Source: Deltaproteobacteria bacterium (lineage in GTDB: Bacteria > UBA10199 > SBBF01). Taken from it: 10,399 bases of DNA. The stretch is from positions 1 to 10,399 of the forward strand of contig JACQOY010000039.1 of NCBI GenBank assembly GCA_016207765.1, written 5' to 3'. This document shows, in pieces, positions 28 through 6,878 of this stretch. Numbering within the stretch: position 1 is the first letter of the stretch; every line of letters starts with the position of its first letter. The notes beneath the pieces are model-generated. The model was not told the DNA's origin and searched no databases. It was given only the letters and a program-made list of their open reading frames with translations. Made by a program: the position numbers and the translations under genes.

Positions 28-3000
28 ATGACCCAAGATACGGCTACTTCCATTCCTAAAATTATTGATGACCAGTTCCGTGTTGAAAAAATGCTGGGGG
101 AGGGGACATTTGCCCGGGTCTTTAAAGTTCGTCGCGGGAAAGAGATCTGGGCCCTCAAACTTCTGAAAAAACCTCTCAGCGGTCAAAACGGGGAAGCCTG
201 GATTGAGGCCTTCCGGTTCGAATTTTCACTCCTTAAAGATATCATTCATCCGGCTGTCGTCAAAATCGGCGATTTTGGATGGGATAAACAGCTCGAATCG
301 ATTTATTTTACCGAAGAATTGGTCGAAGGGACTCCTCTCGATGAGTTCACCAAAGAGTGCGATCCCCAGGTGGGAGAGGCGCTCTTTATTCAGTGTCTTG
401 AGGCGCTGGATGCCATTCACCGGGCGGGGGCGGTGCACGGTGACGTCAAACCATCCAATATATATGTTGTTGAAGGGGCCGGGGGATCCAGGGATCCGCA
501 GATCAAGATTCTTGATCTCGGCATCGCCCATCCCAAGTTTCAACTCATTGCCGGGACTCCTTCGTATTTTGCCCCGGAAAAGGTGTTGAACGAGTCGGTG
601 GACGAACGGTCCGATCTTTATTCCCTCGGAGTGACCTTTTATTATTGTCTGACGGGATCAAACCCGTTTGTACGAGCCAGCCCGACCGAAACACTGCGGG
701 CGCAGGTCTCGGTTATTCCCCCCGCCCCTGGTTCCATCAACCCGAAGATATCCCCCTATTTAAACCGAATCCTTTGTCGTCTTTTGGCCAAAAATCCGCG
801 CGATCGTTTCGTCAATGCCAAAGAGGTGTTGACTGAACTGGATTTCGAAAAGGGGGTGCCGAAGGCCACCAGTGGCGTGGCCACCGGTGGCGTGGCCACC
901 AGTGGCGTAGCCGCCGCTCCCCCCGTCCTGATTTCCGAAAAATGGGTCGGCCGGGCAAAGGCCGTCGAGGGAATCAGGAAATGGGTCGATTCCGGAAAGG
1001 GAGGATTGTTGCTGATCGCGGGCGAAGCGGGAATCGGAAAGAGCCGCCTTTTGAATGAAATGAGGTACGAATTGGAGCTCAAAGGGTTTCCCGTTCGAAC
1101 CGATTGTTCTTCCGTGGACGCGCGCATGCCGGCGGAGATGGTTTTTTTAATCGATATGAACCGGTTCGATCCCGCGGGGCTTCAGCCCTTGATCGGCAAG
1201 AGCTGGAAAGGAATTGTCGCTCTTCTGCCGGACGAAGCCGAAAAAGCCTCCCAATGGGGGGCCGAATATTCCCTGCCGGTTGAAACCGTGACGCTCGAAC
1301 CGATGACCCGTGATGATGTCCGGCGGCTGATTGCCCTCTCAACCCGCGACGAAAATCCCCCGGCTCTTTTGGTTGATCCCCTTTATGCCGAAACGAAGGG
1401 ACACCCGGGGACGACTGTTTCCCTTCTTTTGGCCCTCTGTCGGGCCGGAAAACTGGTGGGACCGCACGGTGAATGGAATCTGGCCCTTTTCCGCGAAGGG
1501 CTGGATTACGCCACCCTCGAAATGACCCCTTCCGAGCGCGACCAGCTTCTCTCGCATCTGGGGAGGGATAAGCCGCTTGAAAAGGCGGAGCTTCTGATCG
1601 AGGCATGTGATGAAAAACTCAAGCTTGGCCGTTTCGACGAGGCGGCTTTGTTTTTTGACGAGGTGGAGGATCTCATCAAAATTCTGCCCCGAGGGGAAGA
1701 CCGCCTTAAATTGCGGATCGCCCTTTTGGAAAAAAGGGGATGGAAATCGATCCGTGAGGAAAATTTCGATGCCGCAAAGCGTGAACTGGAGGTGGCTCTC
1801 GGTCTTCTGGAAGAACTTGAAGATTCGCCGGAGGGTGGTTTTTCCTCCGTTATTTCCCTTCGGGTGAGGAATTATTACGCCTTTGTCCTGATGCACGAGG
1901 GGAAGGCTGTAAGGGCGGTCGAAATTTTCCGGAAAACCGAAGAGGAATGGGAAAAACTTCCCTCCGATGAAGATCGGAGAAAGGTCACCAACAACGACCT
2001 TGCGCTGGCCCTGATGCAACAGGGGGAGTGTGCCCAAGCCGCCAATTTTTTGGAGGGGCGGCTCCCTTTTTACGAGGAGCTGGCCGATTCCGCCCTGAAA
2101 AACCGGTGTCATTACAATCTGGGTGAATGCTTTCTCAAATTGGGGGATCACCAACGGGCCATCGAACATTATCAGGCGTCTGTCCAGGGGGCCCGCCCGG
2201 CGCGCCAGTGGGATCTGTTGTTGCGTGCCTACAACGGTTTGGGAAATGCCTACAATCTGCTCAAGGATGTGGATGCAACATTGGCCAATTACCAAAGGGC
2301 GCTGGATTTGGCGCGTTACCTCAAGGATTGGGCGGCCGCCAGCGCTGTGGCCCAGAACATGGGGGTGATCCAGCAGGAATTGGGACAAACCGCCCGGGCG
2401 GAAAAAAACATCACTCTCTCACTTCAAATGCTGAAACAGGTCACCGAGATGACTCCCCACATCCGTTATCTCAAGGCCCGGGCTACCCTCGAATTGGGTG
2501 AGGTCGAGCGCCAGCAGAGGCAGTTTGACAAGGCCCGAACCCTGTTTGGACAAGCCTCCCAATTGGTCATGAACGAAAAAGGGCTTGAGGATTTTGTGTT
2601 TTGGGTGATGCATTCGCAGGCTCTTTTGGCTTTGGATGAAGACCGTCCGCAGGAATTTTCCCGTCTCTATCCGGAGCTTTTGCACCACGCGGTTGGTGAT
2701 GAGCAAAAAAAACGGGTCGAATTTTTGAAAAAACGCTCGCCGGTTGACCCGACTCTTCCCCAGTTTCAGGGGAGCGGGGAGGTGCGATCGGAGTGGAAGT
2801 CGGATCGGGGAGGTATTGTCCGGAGGGAGAGCAGTGGCCCCCTCCAAATGCCTCCTTTGCCCCCGAAAATTCCCCATGTCCGTCCGGACAATGATCCTTT
2901 TCTGGCGGTTTTGCAAATAAACACCCTTTTGGGAACTGAGCGCGATCTTCAGGCTCTTTTGTCTTTGGTCCTGCAATGCGCCCTGAACCTTTCGAAAGCC

Positions 3001-4656
3001 GAAAGCGGCCTGATCCTTCTTGCCGATGAAAGGAGGGAGCTGTCGGTCGCCGCCTCGCGCAACATGGAAGTGGACGACGATCTTTCCCAGGTCAGCCGTC
3101 AGGTGGCCGGGAAGGTTCTGGAAACGGGGAAGGCGGTCTGCTCCGACAATGCCCTCAATGACCCCGAATTCAAAAACTACCGATCGGTGATGCTCATGGG
3201 GCTTAAGTCGATTTTTTGTCTCCCGGTCCGATCAGGCGGAAAAGTGATCGGTGTTTTGTATCTTACGCACCGTTTTCAGACTTCCCTTTTCAACGCCGAG
3301 ACAATGGAGGTGATGCAGGTTTTTGCCGATCAGGCGGGGATGGCCCTCTCGCACGCCCAGTTGCTGGCGCAGATTGAAGAACAAAACAGAAAACTCGAAA
3401 ACCGTCTCGCCGTTGCCGATGAACAGATCGAGACCTTCCAAACGCTCCTGCGCGAAAAAAGCCTTGAGAAGCGTCATCCCTATGCCGAAATTATTTCAAA
3501 AAGTCCGGCCATGGAGAGGGTGTTTGGCCTTCTTGACCGGGTGACCGCAACGAATCTTTCGGTTCTCATTCATGGTGAATCGGGAACGGGAAAAGAGCTG
3601 GTGGCGCGGGCTCTGCACAAAAACGGTTCCCGCGCCGACGGCCCTTTTGTCGCCATCAACTGCGGAGCTCTTCCGGCCAATCTGATCGAATCGGAACTTT
3701 TTGGATACAAGGCGGGGGCCTATACCGGGGCGGTGCGAGACAAACCGGGCCTCTTCGAGATGGCGAAGGGGGGGGTTCTTTTTTTGGACGAGATTGGGGA
3801 ACTGGATGTGACCCTTCAGGTAAAACTCTTAAGGGCGGTTCAGGAGAGGGAGATCATGCGGCTGGGAGATACCCGGCTTATTCCCATTGATGTCCGGATT
3901 GTTTCGGCCAGTCTGAAGAATCTGAAGGAAGAACTGGCCCGAAAAAAATTTCGGGAAGATCTTTATTACCGCATTGCCGAAATTCAGATCGATCTTCCCC
4001 CGCTTCGCGAACGGTGCGAGGACATCCCGCTTCTTATCCATCATTTTGTGGAGCAGTTTGCCCGGGAGCAGGGGCTTAAAAAAAACCCGGCGGTGGCGAA
4101 AGATCTTTTACGCCTCTTGGTCGAGCATCGCTGGCCGGGAAACGTCCGCGAACTGGCCAATCGGGTTCGGGTGGCCTGCGCTTTATCCGACGGCAAGGTT
4201 GTCCGCATCGCCGATTTGCCCGAAGCGGATCGCCTTCTCCTTGTGGCGGGTGAGGGAAAAAAGACAATTGTCCCCCCCGGTGGAAGTCAAAGGGTTGACA
4301 GGAAAAAATTCTTCGGGGATCTTTTGAGGGGCAAGAAAAAGTGGAAAGAGATTGAAAACATCATCATGGCAAAAGCGCTGTTAAAAAGCGGTTTTGACGT
4401 GGTGGTTGCGGCGCGAGCCTTGGGAGTTGCGCAAGCAACGCTTTACAATCGCCTGCGGCGCGAGCGGTTCCGCGCCCGTAAATCAGAGTTTGAAGTGCTT
4501 CCTTTTATTTTGAGCGAGGGAATCCCCCTGGAGATACTCAAGCGCGAGGTGTTTTGCCTTGCCTATGAATTGAACGAGGAACGCCCCTACCACGCCGCGC
4601 GAAGTCTGGGGGTATCTCCCGGAATGTTTTACCAGTGGGTGGAAAAGAAAGTTTAA
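28..4656 (+). CDS. Hanks-type kinase / ATPase / TPR / GAF / sigma54-activator fusion regulator
   Basis: A 1542-residue cytoplasmic signalling protein that should activate sigma54 RNA polymerase. Seen in order: a Ser/Thr kinase domain (about 17-272) with G-loop at 23-28, K44, HGD catalytic motif (H137, D139, K141, N144), DLG at D163 and APE at 182-184; a short Ala/Thr/Gly/Val repeat linker (280-295); a compact ATPase with Walker A GEAGIGKS at 332-339 and a Walker B-like aspartate D376; TPR-like helices (about 510-900); GAF (about 965-1115); a short coiled coil; a sigma54 AAA+ domain (about 1152-1410) with Walker A at 1183-1190, GAYTGA at 1230-1235, DE at 1254-1255 and WPGNVREL at 1369-1376; then Fis-type HTH at about 1442-1481 and a second HTH-like unit at 1502-1542. 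No transmembrane segment is evident. ATG 28 has no clear Shine-Dalgarno, and the frame is open back to base 1, so the true start could lie upstream. The signal and target genes are unknown. Confidence 0.93.
865..909 (+). repeat. Three tandem 15-bp repeats in the kinase-ATPase linker
   Basis: Three in-frame copies (865-879, 880-894, 895-909) of GCCACCAGTGGCGTG, differing by single substitutions (A to G in copy 2, final G to A in copy 3). They encode [10 protein letters not shown] and ATSGV in the flexible linker between the kinase and ATPase domains. The middle copy contains the perfect 12-bp palindrome GCCACCGGTGGC. Because the unit is a multiple of three, copy number can change without breaking the frame. 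Confidence 0.9.
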
Positions 4657-4841
4657 GCCACCGGAACGTCGCGGTCCATGACGGTCTTGCGTCCATCGGA
4701 CTTGGCGTTTTCGATGGCCTTCTCAACGATCTGCTGAAGGCGCTGGGTTAAGGCCTCCATTGTCGAAGCAGAGGTGTTGCAATCCCCTTTTTCCTTGATG
4801 AATTTTTTGACCTTTGATGCGATAACAAGAAGTTCGCTCAT
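4653..4841 (-). CDS. Bacterial singlet histone (histone-fold DNA-binding protein)
   Basis: A 62-residue basic protein whose layout matches a minimal histone fold: alpha1 about residues 4-18 ([12 protein letters not shown]), loop, long alpha2 about 24-49, then the L2 motif [10 protein letters not shown] at 49-58. R51 and D58 are seven residues apart, the spacing of the Arg-Asp clamp in archaeal histones such as HMfB. The helix that should follow D58 is nearly absent (VPVA), which fits the shortened alpha3 reported for the Bdellovibrio histone Bd0055/HBb; I rely on memory for that comparison. The protein would act as a dimer on DNA in the nucleoid. The gene is monocistronic, convergent with the large regulator (the two stop codons share TTAA) and divergent from archease. 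The start is supported by the fold beginning directly after it and by an upstream GGAGG that a hairpin would bring close. It is not a DUF1931 double histone, which would be about twice as long. Confidence 0.85.
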
Positions 4842-5005
4842 TATTTTGTATGTTTCACGCTAAGGTGAAACATCCTCCGTGGTGAGATACGCCCTTGGAC
4901 AATTCAACAAATTTCACAGCAAAGATCCTTTCTTTACGGTAAAATGTTGCTACATGTCCGGGTATGATGCCATGAATTGGGCCAAACTTAAGGATTTTCG
5001 GCAAA
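4842..5005. other. Divergent intergenic region, histone to archease
   Basis: This 164-bp region should hold the promoters of the histone gene (leftward) and archease-rtcB (rightward). Visible are the histone leader hairpin at 4851-4872, a TTTCAC half-copy of its arm at 4912-4917, a small palindrome TTTACGGTAAA at 4933-4943, and the archease Shine-Dalgarno AAGGA at 4990-4994. I see no confident -35/-10 pair. Confidence 0.45.
4851..4878 (-). promoter_or_regulatory. Hairpin leader and displaced Shine-Dalgarno of the histone gene
   Basis: A perfect 8-bp inverted repeat (TGTTTCAC at 4851-4858 and GTGAAACA at 4865-4872, 6-nt loop) lies 9 nt upstream of the histone ATG. The only strong Shine-Dalgarno, GGAGG (plus-strand cctcc, 4874-4878), sits 1 nt beyond the hairpin. 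Linear distance from GGAGG to ATG is 32 nt; with the hairpin folded the remaining spacing is 10 nt. It could instead be a protein operator in DNA. The sequence is directly visible; its function is inferred. Confidence 0.55.
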
Positions 5006-5428
5006 ATGGCAAGGAATTTTTATCAACTCATTGATCACACGGCCGATATTGGTATCGAGGTGACAGCCCATACCAAGGGAGAATTATTCACCAAGGCGGC
5101 GTGCGCCTTTTGCGACCTGATCTGCAATTTGAAGACCGTCAGACCGGTTGTCGAACGAAAGATCGCCGTTATTCGCGACAACCCCGCGCATCTTCTGCAG
5201 GCGCTCCTTAACGAACTTCTTTATCTCTTTGAGACAAAGCATGAACTTTACCCGGAAGTGGTCCGGCTGAATTTCAAGGACAACGGGTTGACGGCCGTTG
5301 TGCGCGGCGAGAAGATCGATCCGGCGCGGCATGAAATCAAAACAGGGATCAAGGCGGTGACGTTTCATCAGTTGGAGGTAAAAGAAGAGGGGGGAGTCTG
5401 GAAAGCCAGAGTGATATTTGATGTCTGA
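5006..5428 (+). CDS. Archease, RtcB-activating protein
   Basis: A 140-residue protein of normal archease length. Archease is a small cytoplasmic cofactor that promotes guanylylation of the RNA ligase RtcB and allows multiple turnovers. Seen: the N-terminal DHTADIG signature (residues 10-16, with D10 and D14), an acidic-hydrophobic core containing LLNELLYLFE, and the conserved C-terminal IFDV end with D139, which together supply the family's metal-binding acidic residues. The ATG at 5006 is preceded by AAGGA at 4990-4994 with 11 nt spacing. Its 3' end overlaps the rtcB start by 8 bp, which indicates translational coupling and supports the functional pairing. Nothing looks degenerate, which matters when judging whether the neighbouring interrupted rtcB is still used. 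Confidence 0.95.
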   Translation: MARNFYQLIDHTADIGIEVTAHTKGELFTKAACAFCDLICNLKTVRPVVERKIAVIRDNPAHLLQALLNELLYLFETKHELYPEVVRLNFKDNGLTAVVRGEKIDPARHEIKTGIKAVTFHQLEVKEEGGVWKARVIFDV

Positions 5429-6434
5429 ACAAAAATTCACAGGCCCAGTCGAGCGGATCGACGAAAACCGTATTCGCATCCCCAAAAGCGGGAATATGCG
5501 GGTGGACGGCATCGTGTATGTCGATGAAACCCTCCACGAGGGGATCAAAGACGACATGTGCCTTCAACAGGTGGCCAATGTCGCCACCCTCCCAGGCATT
5601 CTCAAGGCCTCCATTGGAATGCCCGATATCCACTGGGGTTACGGATTTCCCATCGGTGGTGTCGCCGCCTTTGATCTGAACGAAGGGGTCGTTTCTCCCG
5701 GCGGTGTCGGTTATGACATCAACTGCGGCGTGCGACTCCTTCGAAGCAATTTAACAAAAGATGAGGTGAGGCCCGAACTCAAAACCTTGGTTGGTGCCCT
5801 CTTTCACAAAATTCCCTCAGGGGTCGGCTCCAGCGGGACTTTTCCGCGGCTCTCGGAGGGTGATTACAAAAAGGTATTTGTAAAAGGGGCCGCCTGGCCG
5901 ATTGAGCATGGCTACGGCGACAGCGATGATCTCAAACACCTTGAAGCGGAAGGGTGCATCCCGCATGCCGACCCCGATTTGGTCACTCCGCGGGCCAAAA
6001 AGAGGGGGGCAGACCAGCTTGGAACGCTCGGTTCCGGCAATCATTTTCTGGAAATTGACTATGTGGCCCGTATCTTTGACGAGGATATTGCCTCTCAATT
6101 GGGGCTTTTTCAAGATCAGGTTTGTGTCACAATCCATTGCGGCTCGCGCGGCCTCGGACATCAGACCTGCGAGGACAATCTGGGGATAATGCTCGCCGCG
6201 GCGCGGAAATACGGCATCAATCTTCCGGACAGTCAGCTTTGTTGTGCGCCGATCAAATCAAACGAGGGAAAAAACTATCTGTCAGCCATGGCGTCGGCGG
6301 CCAACTTTGCCTTCGCCAACCGTCAGGTGATTGCCCATCTGGTGCGGCGCGTCTTTTCCCATATTTTCAAGAAGAGCGAAGGTGAGTTGGGAATGAATGT
6401 CGTCTCTGACGTCTGCCACAACATCGCCAAATAG
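5421..6434 (+). CDS. rtcB: RtcB RNA ligase, N-terminal 337 residues up to an in-frame amber codon
   Basis: This encodes the first 337 residues of RtcB, the Mn/GTP-dependent ligase that joins 2',3'-cyclic phosphate or 3'-phosphate RNA ends to 5'-OH ends in tRNA splicing and RNA repair. Metal-ligand motifs are all present: GYDINCG (D99, C102), GSGNH (H208), IHCGSRG (H239) and DVCHNIAK (H333), aligning with the Pyrococcus horikoshii ligands D95, C98, H203, H234 and H329. The frame then meets TAG at 6432-6434. Without it the same frame continues as the rest of RtcB to 6878, giving 485 residues, close to the roughly 480 of full-length archaeal-type RtcB. ATG 5421 is preferred over TTG 5418; it overlaps the archease stop. 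On its own this fragment lacks the GMP-accepting histidine and should not ligate. Confidence 0.93.
   Translation: MSEQKFTGPVERIDENRIRIPKSGNMRVDGIVYVDETLHEGIKDDMCLQQVANVATLPGILKASIGMPDIHWGYGFPIGGVAAFDLNEGVVSPGGVGYDINCGVRLLRSNLTKDEVRPELKTLVGALFHKIPSGVGSSGTFPRLSEGDYKKVFVKGAAWPIEHGYGDSDDLKHLEAEGCIPHADPDLVTPRAKKRGADQLGTLGSGNHFLEIDYVARIFDEDIASQLGLFQDQVCVTIHCGSRGLGHQTCEDNLGIMLAAARKYGINLPDSQLCCAPIKSNEGKNYLSAMASAANFAFANRQVIAHLVRRVFSHIFKKSEGELGMNVVSDVCHNIAK
6432..6434 (+). other. In-frame amber (TAG) codon inside rtcB
   Basis: Codon 338 of rtcB is TAG, between CHNIAK and EKHLVDGK, with the frame identical on both sides and no sign of inserted or lost bases. The position is one where RtcB homologues carry an ordinary residue. 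One substitution could make TAG from Leu (TTG), Tyr, Trp, Gln, Lys, Glu or Ser codons. The next base is G and the bases TAGGA combine the stop with a weak Shine-Dalgarno 10 nt before GTG 6447, so reinitiation is possible. A nonsense mutation, assembly error, readthrough or deliberate split cannot be separated from sequence alone. Confidence 0.9.
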
Positions 6435-6446
6435 GAAAAACATCTC

Positions 6447-6878
6447 GTGGATGGAAAGGAGCGAATGGTTTGTGTCCACCGCAAAGGGGCCACACGGGCG
6501 TTTCCGCCGGGGCATCCCGAAACGCCGGAGGCGTATCAGAAAACGGGCCAGCCGGTTTTGATTCCCGGCGACATGGGACGGTATTCTTATGTGTTGGTCG
6601 GCACGGGCCAAGCCTTTGAAGAGGCGTTTGGTTCTTCGTGTCACGGCGCCGGACGGCTGATGAGCCGAAACAGGGCATTGAAGAGCGTTCGCGGCCGTAA
6701 TGTCGCGCGCGAGATGGAACAACGCGGAGTGATTGTGCAGGCCGACAGTTATCGGACCCTTGGCGAGGAAATCCCGGAGGCCTACAAGGATGTCGCCCAG
6801 GTTGTCCGTGTTGTGGAAAACGCGGGGCTCGCCAAAATCGTCGCCCAGCTCAAGCCGATCGGGGTGGTGAAGGGGTAA
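6447..6878 (+). CDS. rtcB: RtcB RNA ligase, C-terminal part carrying the nucleophilic histidine
   Basis: About 143 residues that continue RtcB after the amber codon in the same frame. Seen: VHRKGATRAFPPGHP (substrate/GTP-site region), IPGDMG, and SSCHGAGRLMSR, whose histidine (residue 408 counted from 5421) aligns with the guanylylated H404 of P. horikoshii RtcB, followed by a normal C-terminus ending VVKG. The sequence is intact to its TAA, so decay is either recent or absent. If translated separately it could start at GTG 6447, with AGGA at 6433-6436, or at ATG 6465, with GGAAAGGAG just upstream. Otherwise it is made only by readthrough. There is no terminator-like hairpin between it and the convergent TPR gene 26 bp away. 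Confidence 0.85.
   Translation: MDGKERMVCVHRKGATRAFPPGHPETPEAYQKTGQPVLIPGDMGRYSYVLVGTGQAFEEAFGSSCHGAGRLMSRNRALKSVRGRNVAREMEQRGVIVQADSYRTLGEEIPEAYKDVAQVVRVVENAGLAKIVAQLKPIGVVKG

Follow-up and report, generated by a model that had tools for sequence, protein, structure and literature searches.

A probable HBb/Bd0055-type histone gene in a deltaproteobacterial lineage with several histone types

The window analysed here is a 10,399-nucleotide stretch of an uncultured Deltaproteobacteria bacterium (GTDB lineage UBA10199; SBBF01), covering positions 1–10,399 of contig JACQOY010000039.1 (assembly GCA_016207765.1). A gene on its minus strand (4653–4841) encodes a 62-residue protein that is very probably a nucleoid-associated histone of the "bacterial dimer" class, akin to HBb (Bd0055) of Bdellovibrio bacteriovorus. 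This assignment is based on the open reading frame (ORF), its homologs, an AlphaFold2 model, a fold match and a phylogenetic tree. An earlier sequence-only reading of the same DNA recognised the histone and over-read it as minimal; its membership of a known class is well supported.

The ORF starts with ATG, ends with TAA and comprises 62 codons, and the computed mass and isoelectric point of the product are 6.85 kDa and 8.9. On sequence comparison we regard it as a real gene, because 297 database proteins (its own entry included) matched at E ≤ 1e-3 and the proportion of nonsynonymous differences (pN) is below that of synonymous differences (pS). Against the relative G001, pN and pS were 0.14 and 0.57; the values against G002 (0.17 and 0.90) and G006 (0.14 and 0.86) were obtained with synonymous sites saturated in both comparisons. 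Six listed homologs on other contigs are near-identical (88–95% identity) and also 62 residues long.

A phmmer search against solved chains placed HBb/Bd0055 first, with E-values of 5.2e-18 (PDB 8fvx) and 5.8e-18 (8cmp) over residues 1–60. The next matches were the face-to-face (FtF) histones 9f2c (1.8e-6) and 9qt0 (4.3e-6), the latter being HLp of Leptospira perolatii, and archaeal chains followed at 0.0041 (Asgard, 9qv5) and 0.42–0.46 (HMfA, 1hta and 1b67). The AlphaFold2 monomer has a mean predicted local distance difference test score of 88, with helices at residues 3–19, 25–48 and 56–58 according to DSSP. Foldseek with this model also returned HBb/Bd0055 as the best matches, and HLp (9qt0) at rank 6. 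The ORF and the model bear out the α1, the long α2, the GRKTVMDRD loop and the near absence of α3 described by the sequence-only reading. A three-residue α3 together with an α2 of residues 25–48 fits the definition of the α3-truncated class. In the tree (54 rows, 61 columns), the window histone groups with HBb and three relatives in a starred clade (support 95/96); 25 of the 51 inner branches are open, so the finer order is left aside. The proposed Bd0055-like identity holds in the phmmer search, the fold match and the tree alike.

Residue conservation was counted on the best 120 homologs listed, with the window protein itself among them. S9, K10, K12, K16, N22, T23, R51, K52, T53, V54, M55 and D58 are invariant in all 120. 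They include the α1 lysines (K10, K12 and K16). The RKTxxxD signature reads RKTVMDRD in the window protein. R51-K52-T53 in loop L2 (4683–4691, minus strand) comprises the clamp arginine and the DNA-contacting KT, and D58 (4668–4670, minus strand) is the clamp aspartate; the numbering and clamp spacing of R51 and D58 had been read correctly from the sequence. Passages of PMC11317129 give the DNA contacts of HBb as K12, T23, S24, A25, K52, T53 and R57, and as T8, S9 and K10 in another crystal form. All of these residues except T8 are present in the window histone. Position 25 varies among the 120 homologs (A in 66, G in 35, S in 19). At the dimer face, residues are either identical or replaced conservatively (V11, L31, I35 to L, L38 to I, I59 to V).

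The identity between the window histone and HBb (PDB 8cmp, 8fvx, 9ezz and 9f0e) is about 55%. They share the fold, a nearly equal length, the RD clamp with D49, the RKTVM loop, the α1 SK motif, most DNA contacts and the dimer-face hydrophobics. The window histone differs in having Ala instead of Thr at position 8 and Asp instead of Ala at position 56, in its length (two residues fewer than the 64 of the 8fvx chain), and in coming from an uncultured host in which its gene is divergent from archease and rtcB. The archaeal nucleosomal histones HMfA and HMfB share the histone fold, the clamp and the KT motif, but have an α3 of about 10 residues against three here; neither such a helix nor a PF00808 match above the cut-off was found in the window protein. 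The ZZ histones, which combine a zinc finger with a dimer-like fold, are closely related in fold. The N-terminal zinc finger is absent from the window histone: the open frame extends to 68 codons, and the six residues before the histone methionine contain no cysteine. A single branch separates the ZZ rows from all others in 98% of bootstrap trees (support 93/91). The dimer rows do not fall on one side of any branch, as the ZZ group nests inside them, and L080 (G011), typed as dimer from an open frame without a zinc finger, groups with ZZ.

The sequence-only reading had considered the short α3 and the following proline to make an unusually minimal and informative fold. We reject this view because an α3 of three to four residues defines the family and Pro60 occurs in 50 of the 120 listed homologs. 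In the passages of PMC11390915 covered, the α3 histone family is defined by an α3 of this length and a shortened α2, and the α3 of HBb is described as one turn in part of PMC11317129. The proline exists, but it is P60 (4662–4664, minus strand), two residues past D58 and not directly after the clamp; one of the homologs sharing it is P0092, whose source name is Bdellovibrionaceae. The tail after D58 is 3–7 residues long in the 120 homologs, six in 78 of them and fewer than four in five. With four residues, as in 14 homologs, the window histone's tail is rather short, yet inside the family range.

By homology, we infer dimerisation, DNA binding, bending and abundance for the window histone. Two chains would form a handshake dimer through antiparallel α2 helices, and the dimer would make sequence-independent contacts with the DNA backbone at the minor groove. 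The contacts would be made by the first turn of α1 (S9, K10 and K12), loop L1 (T23, S24 and A25) and loop L2 (K52, T53 and R57), with the R51–D58 clamp and D49 holding L2. Single dimers would bend and compact DNA alongside HU/IHF, without nucleosome-like stacks.

Several observations weigh against this assignment. In Pfam, the protein stays just below the curated cut-offs of PF09123 (DUF1931; 21.3 vs 21.8 bits) and PF00808 (CBFD_NFYB_HMF; 19.0 vs 21.4 bits), and it scores 36.7 against a cut-off of 50 with NCBIfam NF043032 (archaea_histone). A PF00808 search of the whole own genome gave no match. Because generic libraries nearly miss the protein and the genome-wide PF00808 scan is empty, annotation pipelines may well call it "hypothetical". 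Position 8, where Thr of HBb touches DNA in one crystal form, is Ala in the window protein, as in 51 of the 120 listed homologs. The binding mode of HBb is itself disputed in print, as a straight sheath or as bending. Finally, the likely ancestral Shine-Dalgarno (SD) sequence is 83 nt from the histone ATG, and expression is therefore not assured.

This last point is the basis for the best-surviving alternative, in which the gene is a decaying or silenced histone copy, cut off from its ribosome-binding site by an inserted 5′ segment. The SD-like sequence AAAGAAAGGAT (11 bases; 4925–4935, minus strand) ends 4 nt before the ATG in G001, and the interval 4842–4935 holds 79 more bases between AAAGAAAGGAT and ATG than its counterpart there; an in-frame TAG in the neighbouring rtcB also counts in favour. 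However, the histone frame is uninterrupted, pN is much lower than pS, and the six 62-residue homologs are listed from other contigs. An A-rich start, or reinitiation after a leader ORF, could serve for translation. We consider decay improbable.

An FtF histone of the HLp kind, forming tetramers that wrap about 60 bp of DNA, is less probable still. HLp belongs to the same α3-short family, shares the fold and the clamp with the window histone, and was found by both phmmer and Foldseek as a weaker match. However, the Arg/Asn pair that ties FtF dimers into tetramers (R49/N53 in HLp) is absent from the window histone, which has N45 and D49 instead, and RTT of HLp corresponds to RKT. The R/N pair was found in HLp and in 24 of 51 locus rows, among them a paralogue in the own genome and the ungrouped L150. 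In 96% of bootstrap trees a branch separates the FtF rows from the rest, but its own support is weak (71/81). Moreover, the distinct R/N gene of the own genome matches HLp itself (E 5.9e-19). A small helical or transcription-factor-like orphan that is merely histone-like, such as a CBF/NF-Y-like heterodimer subunit, would suit the sub-threshold PF09123 and PF00808 matches, but is hardly credible given the kept clamp residues and the alignment over residues 1–60 with a solved, functionally studied histone.

In G002 and G006, purine-rich SD-like sequences were seen by eye near the histone ATG. Between the displaced SD-like sequence and the histone start lies a possible 20-residue leader ORF (4855–4917, minus strand; GTG at 4917, stop at 4855–4857), whose start weakly resembles that of the histone gene by eye. 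A perfect 9-bp inverted repeat, ATGTTTCAC-6-GTGAAACAT (4850–4873), is located between the histone start and archease. The core of this repeat, with arms of 8 bp, occurs at one site in the own genome (pattern search, 84% complete), which rejects a repeat family, and the 89-base 5′ stretch has no second copy there. An intrinsic terminator was also rejected, as no T-run was seen by eye and a scan of 4600–5100 gave one site, inside the regulator gene described below. The predicted RNA fold of the repeat region did no better than shuffled sequences (z −0.98; 28 of 200 shuffles equally good), and an Rfam scan of the window at gathering scores gave no match. A promoter scan found two weak 9-of-12 matches (shuffle mean 0.6); one, on the histone strand, overlaps the start codon and is of little use. 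The repeat halves may resemble a parS site split in two; no unsplit exact copy was found in the own genome. Translational coupling or an operator is possible for this region.

On the other side of the histone gene, a convergent gene (28–4656, plus strand) encodes a 1542-residue regulator with Ser/Thr kinase, AAA, TPR, GAF and σ54-activator parts identified by domain matches. The two stop codons overlap tail to tail in TTAA (4653–4656). Besides these parts, the regulator has a helix-turn-helix (HTH) region at its C-terminus, plus an extra tail. The best match to it in PADLOC, over the AAA-HTH part only (residues 1121–1478), is an RtcR/PspF-type σ54 regulator, which is curious with rtcB nearby. 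Archease (5006–5428, plus strand; PF01951, E 2.5e-39) is the divergent neighbour of the histone gene, followed by rtcB (5418–6878, plus strand), where PF01139 matches on both sides of an in-frame TAG at 6432–6434. The placing of the histone next to archease-rtcB was therefore right, in divergent orientation. Because this rtcB is the sole RtcB match in the own genome, the TAG is read as a lesion, a polymorphism or an assembly error. The rtcB frame is intact at this place in G001 and G002. In RtcB of G002 (L094, 5163–6725), about 44 residues are inserted in frame only a few residues downstream of the position corresponding to the window stop; by eye, the insert looks like a repeat element.

In G001, each of the nine window queries has a match in the surroundings of the histone. 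In G002, the histone, archease and rtcB are together within the 12 kb covered, and the regulator is not there. Archease or RtcB was beside the histone in none of 57 other loci, nor in other relatives' loci, several of which cover less than 1.5 kb on one side, so that the absence is incomplete. Five papers contain histone, archease and RtcB together, and judged by title and abstract start, none of them is about bacterial histones. A functional tie was rejected, since the arrangement is seen only in the own genome and in G001 and G002, the only two further genomes of its family that were covered; the adjacency is a family-level gene order and not a widely conserved partnership.

The own genome (G000; 84% complete, 256 contigs) contains two further histone loci. 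One encodes the FtF/HLp-type paralogue with the R/N pair (L091; G000:C204:3235–3417), and the ORF just downstream of it is, as we take it from its sequence, A/G-specific adenine glycosylase-like. The other is a ZZ-type histone-fold piece of 37 codons (L092; G000:C124:3–113; by eye QCAIDALT...SGRKTVMGRD) at a contig edge, with the N-terminus beyond the edge and hence the zinc finger unseen. The same genome has three HU/IHF genes, for which the sequence-only reading had proposed to look, and HU/IHF was found in 59 of the 60 genomes examined. The statement that bacterial histones are rare is right across bacteria, where they occur in 1.86% of genomes (PMC10627809), but not within the own class: a histone match of any type was found in 39 of the 60 genomes, namely 38 of the 46 belonging to the class, its own genome among them, and 1 of the 14 others. 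By hand tally, the 46 class genomes comprise 21 with the dimer type, 23 with FtF and 7 with ZZ, the last count including two contig-edge pieces (G000 and G015). The five full-length ZZ proteins all show the CxxC..C....C..CxxxC..H..H pattern. Dimer and FtF types occur together in nine class genomes, and all three types in two: G006, which is 100% complete and has each of them in full length, and G000, where the ZZ piece is truncated. In the passages of PMC11390915 covered, 50% of the proteomes that include a ZZ histone are reported to hold a second histone, and B. bacteriovorus HD100 has a ZZ histone. Triple co-occurrence is not discussed in the passages on bacterial histones consulted, supplements being outside their scope; we regard the co-occurrence as modestly new, without claiming that it is unpublished.

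A bolder proposal, which we hold as speculative and rather unlikely, is that the lineage runs a layered chromatin in which a dimeric bender, a tetrameric FtF wrapper, a ZZ histone and at least three HU/IHF proteins would divide the labour in one small genome, the bender of this strain having gained its own control region of leader ORF and inverted repeat. Taken alone, the window histone is one more close relative of a solved histone, and the modest interest lies in the multi-histone lineage, not in the fold. This lineage lends itself to studying how a bacterial chromosome is shared among HU, histones that bend DNA and histones that wrap it.
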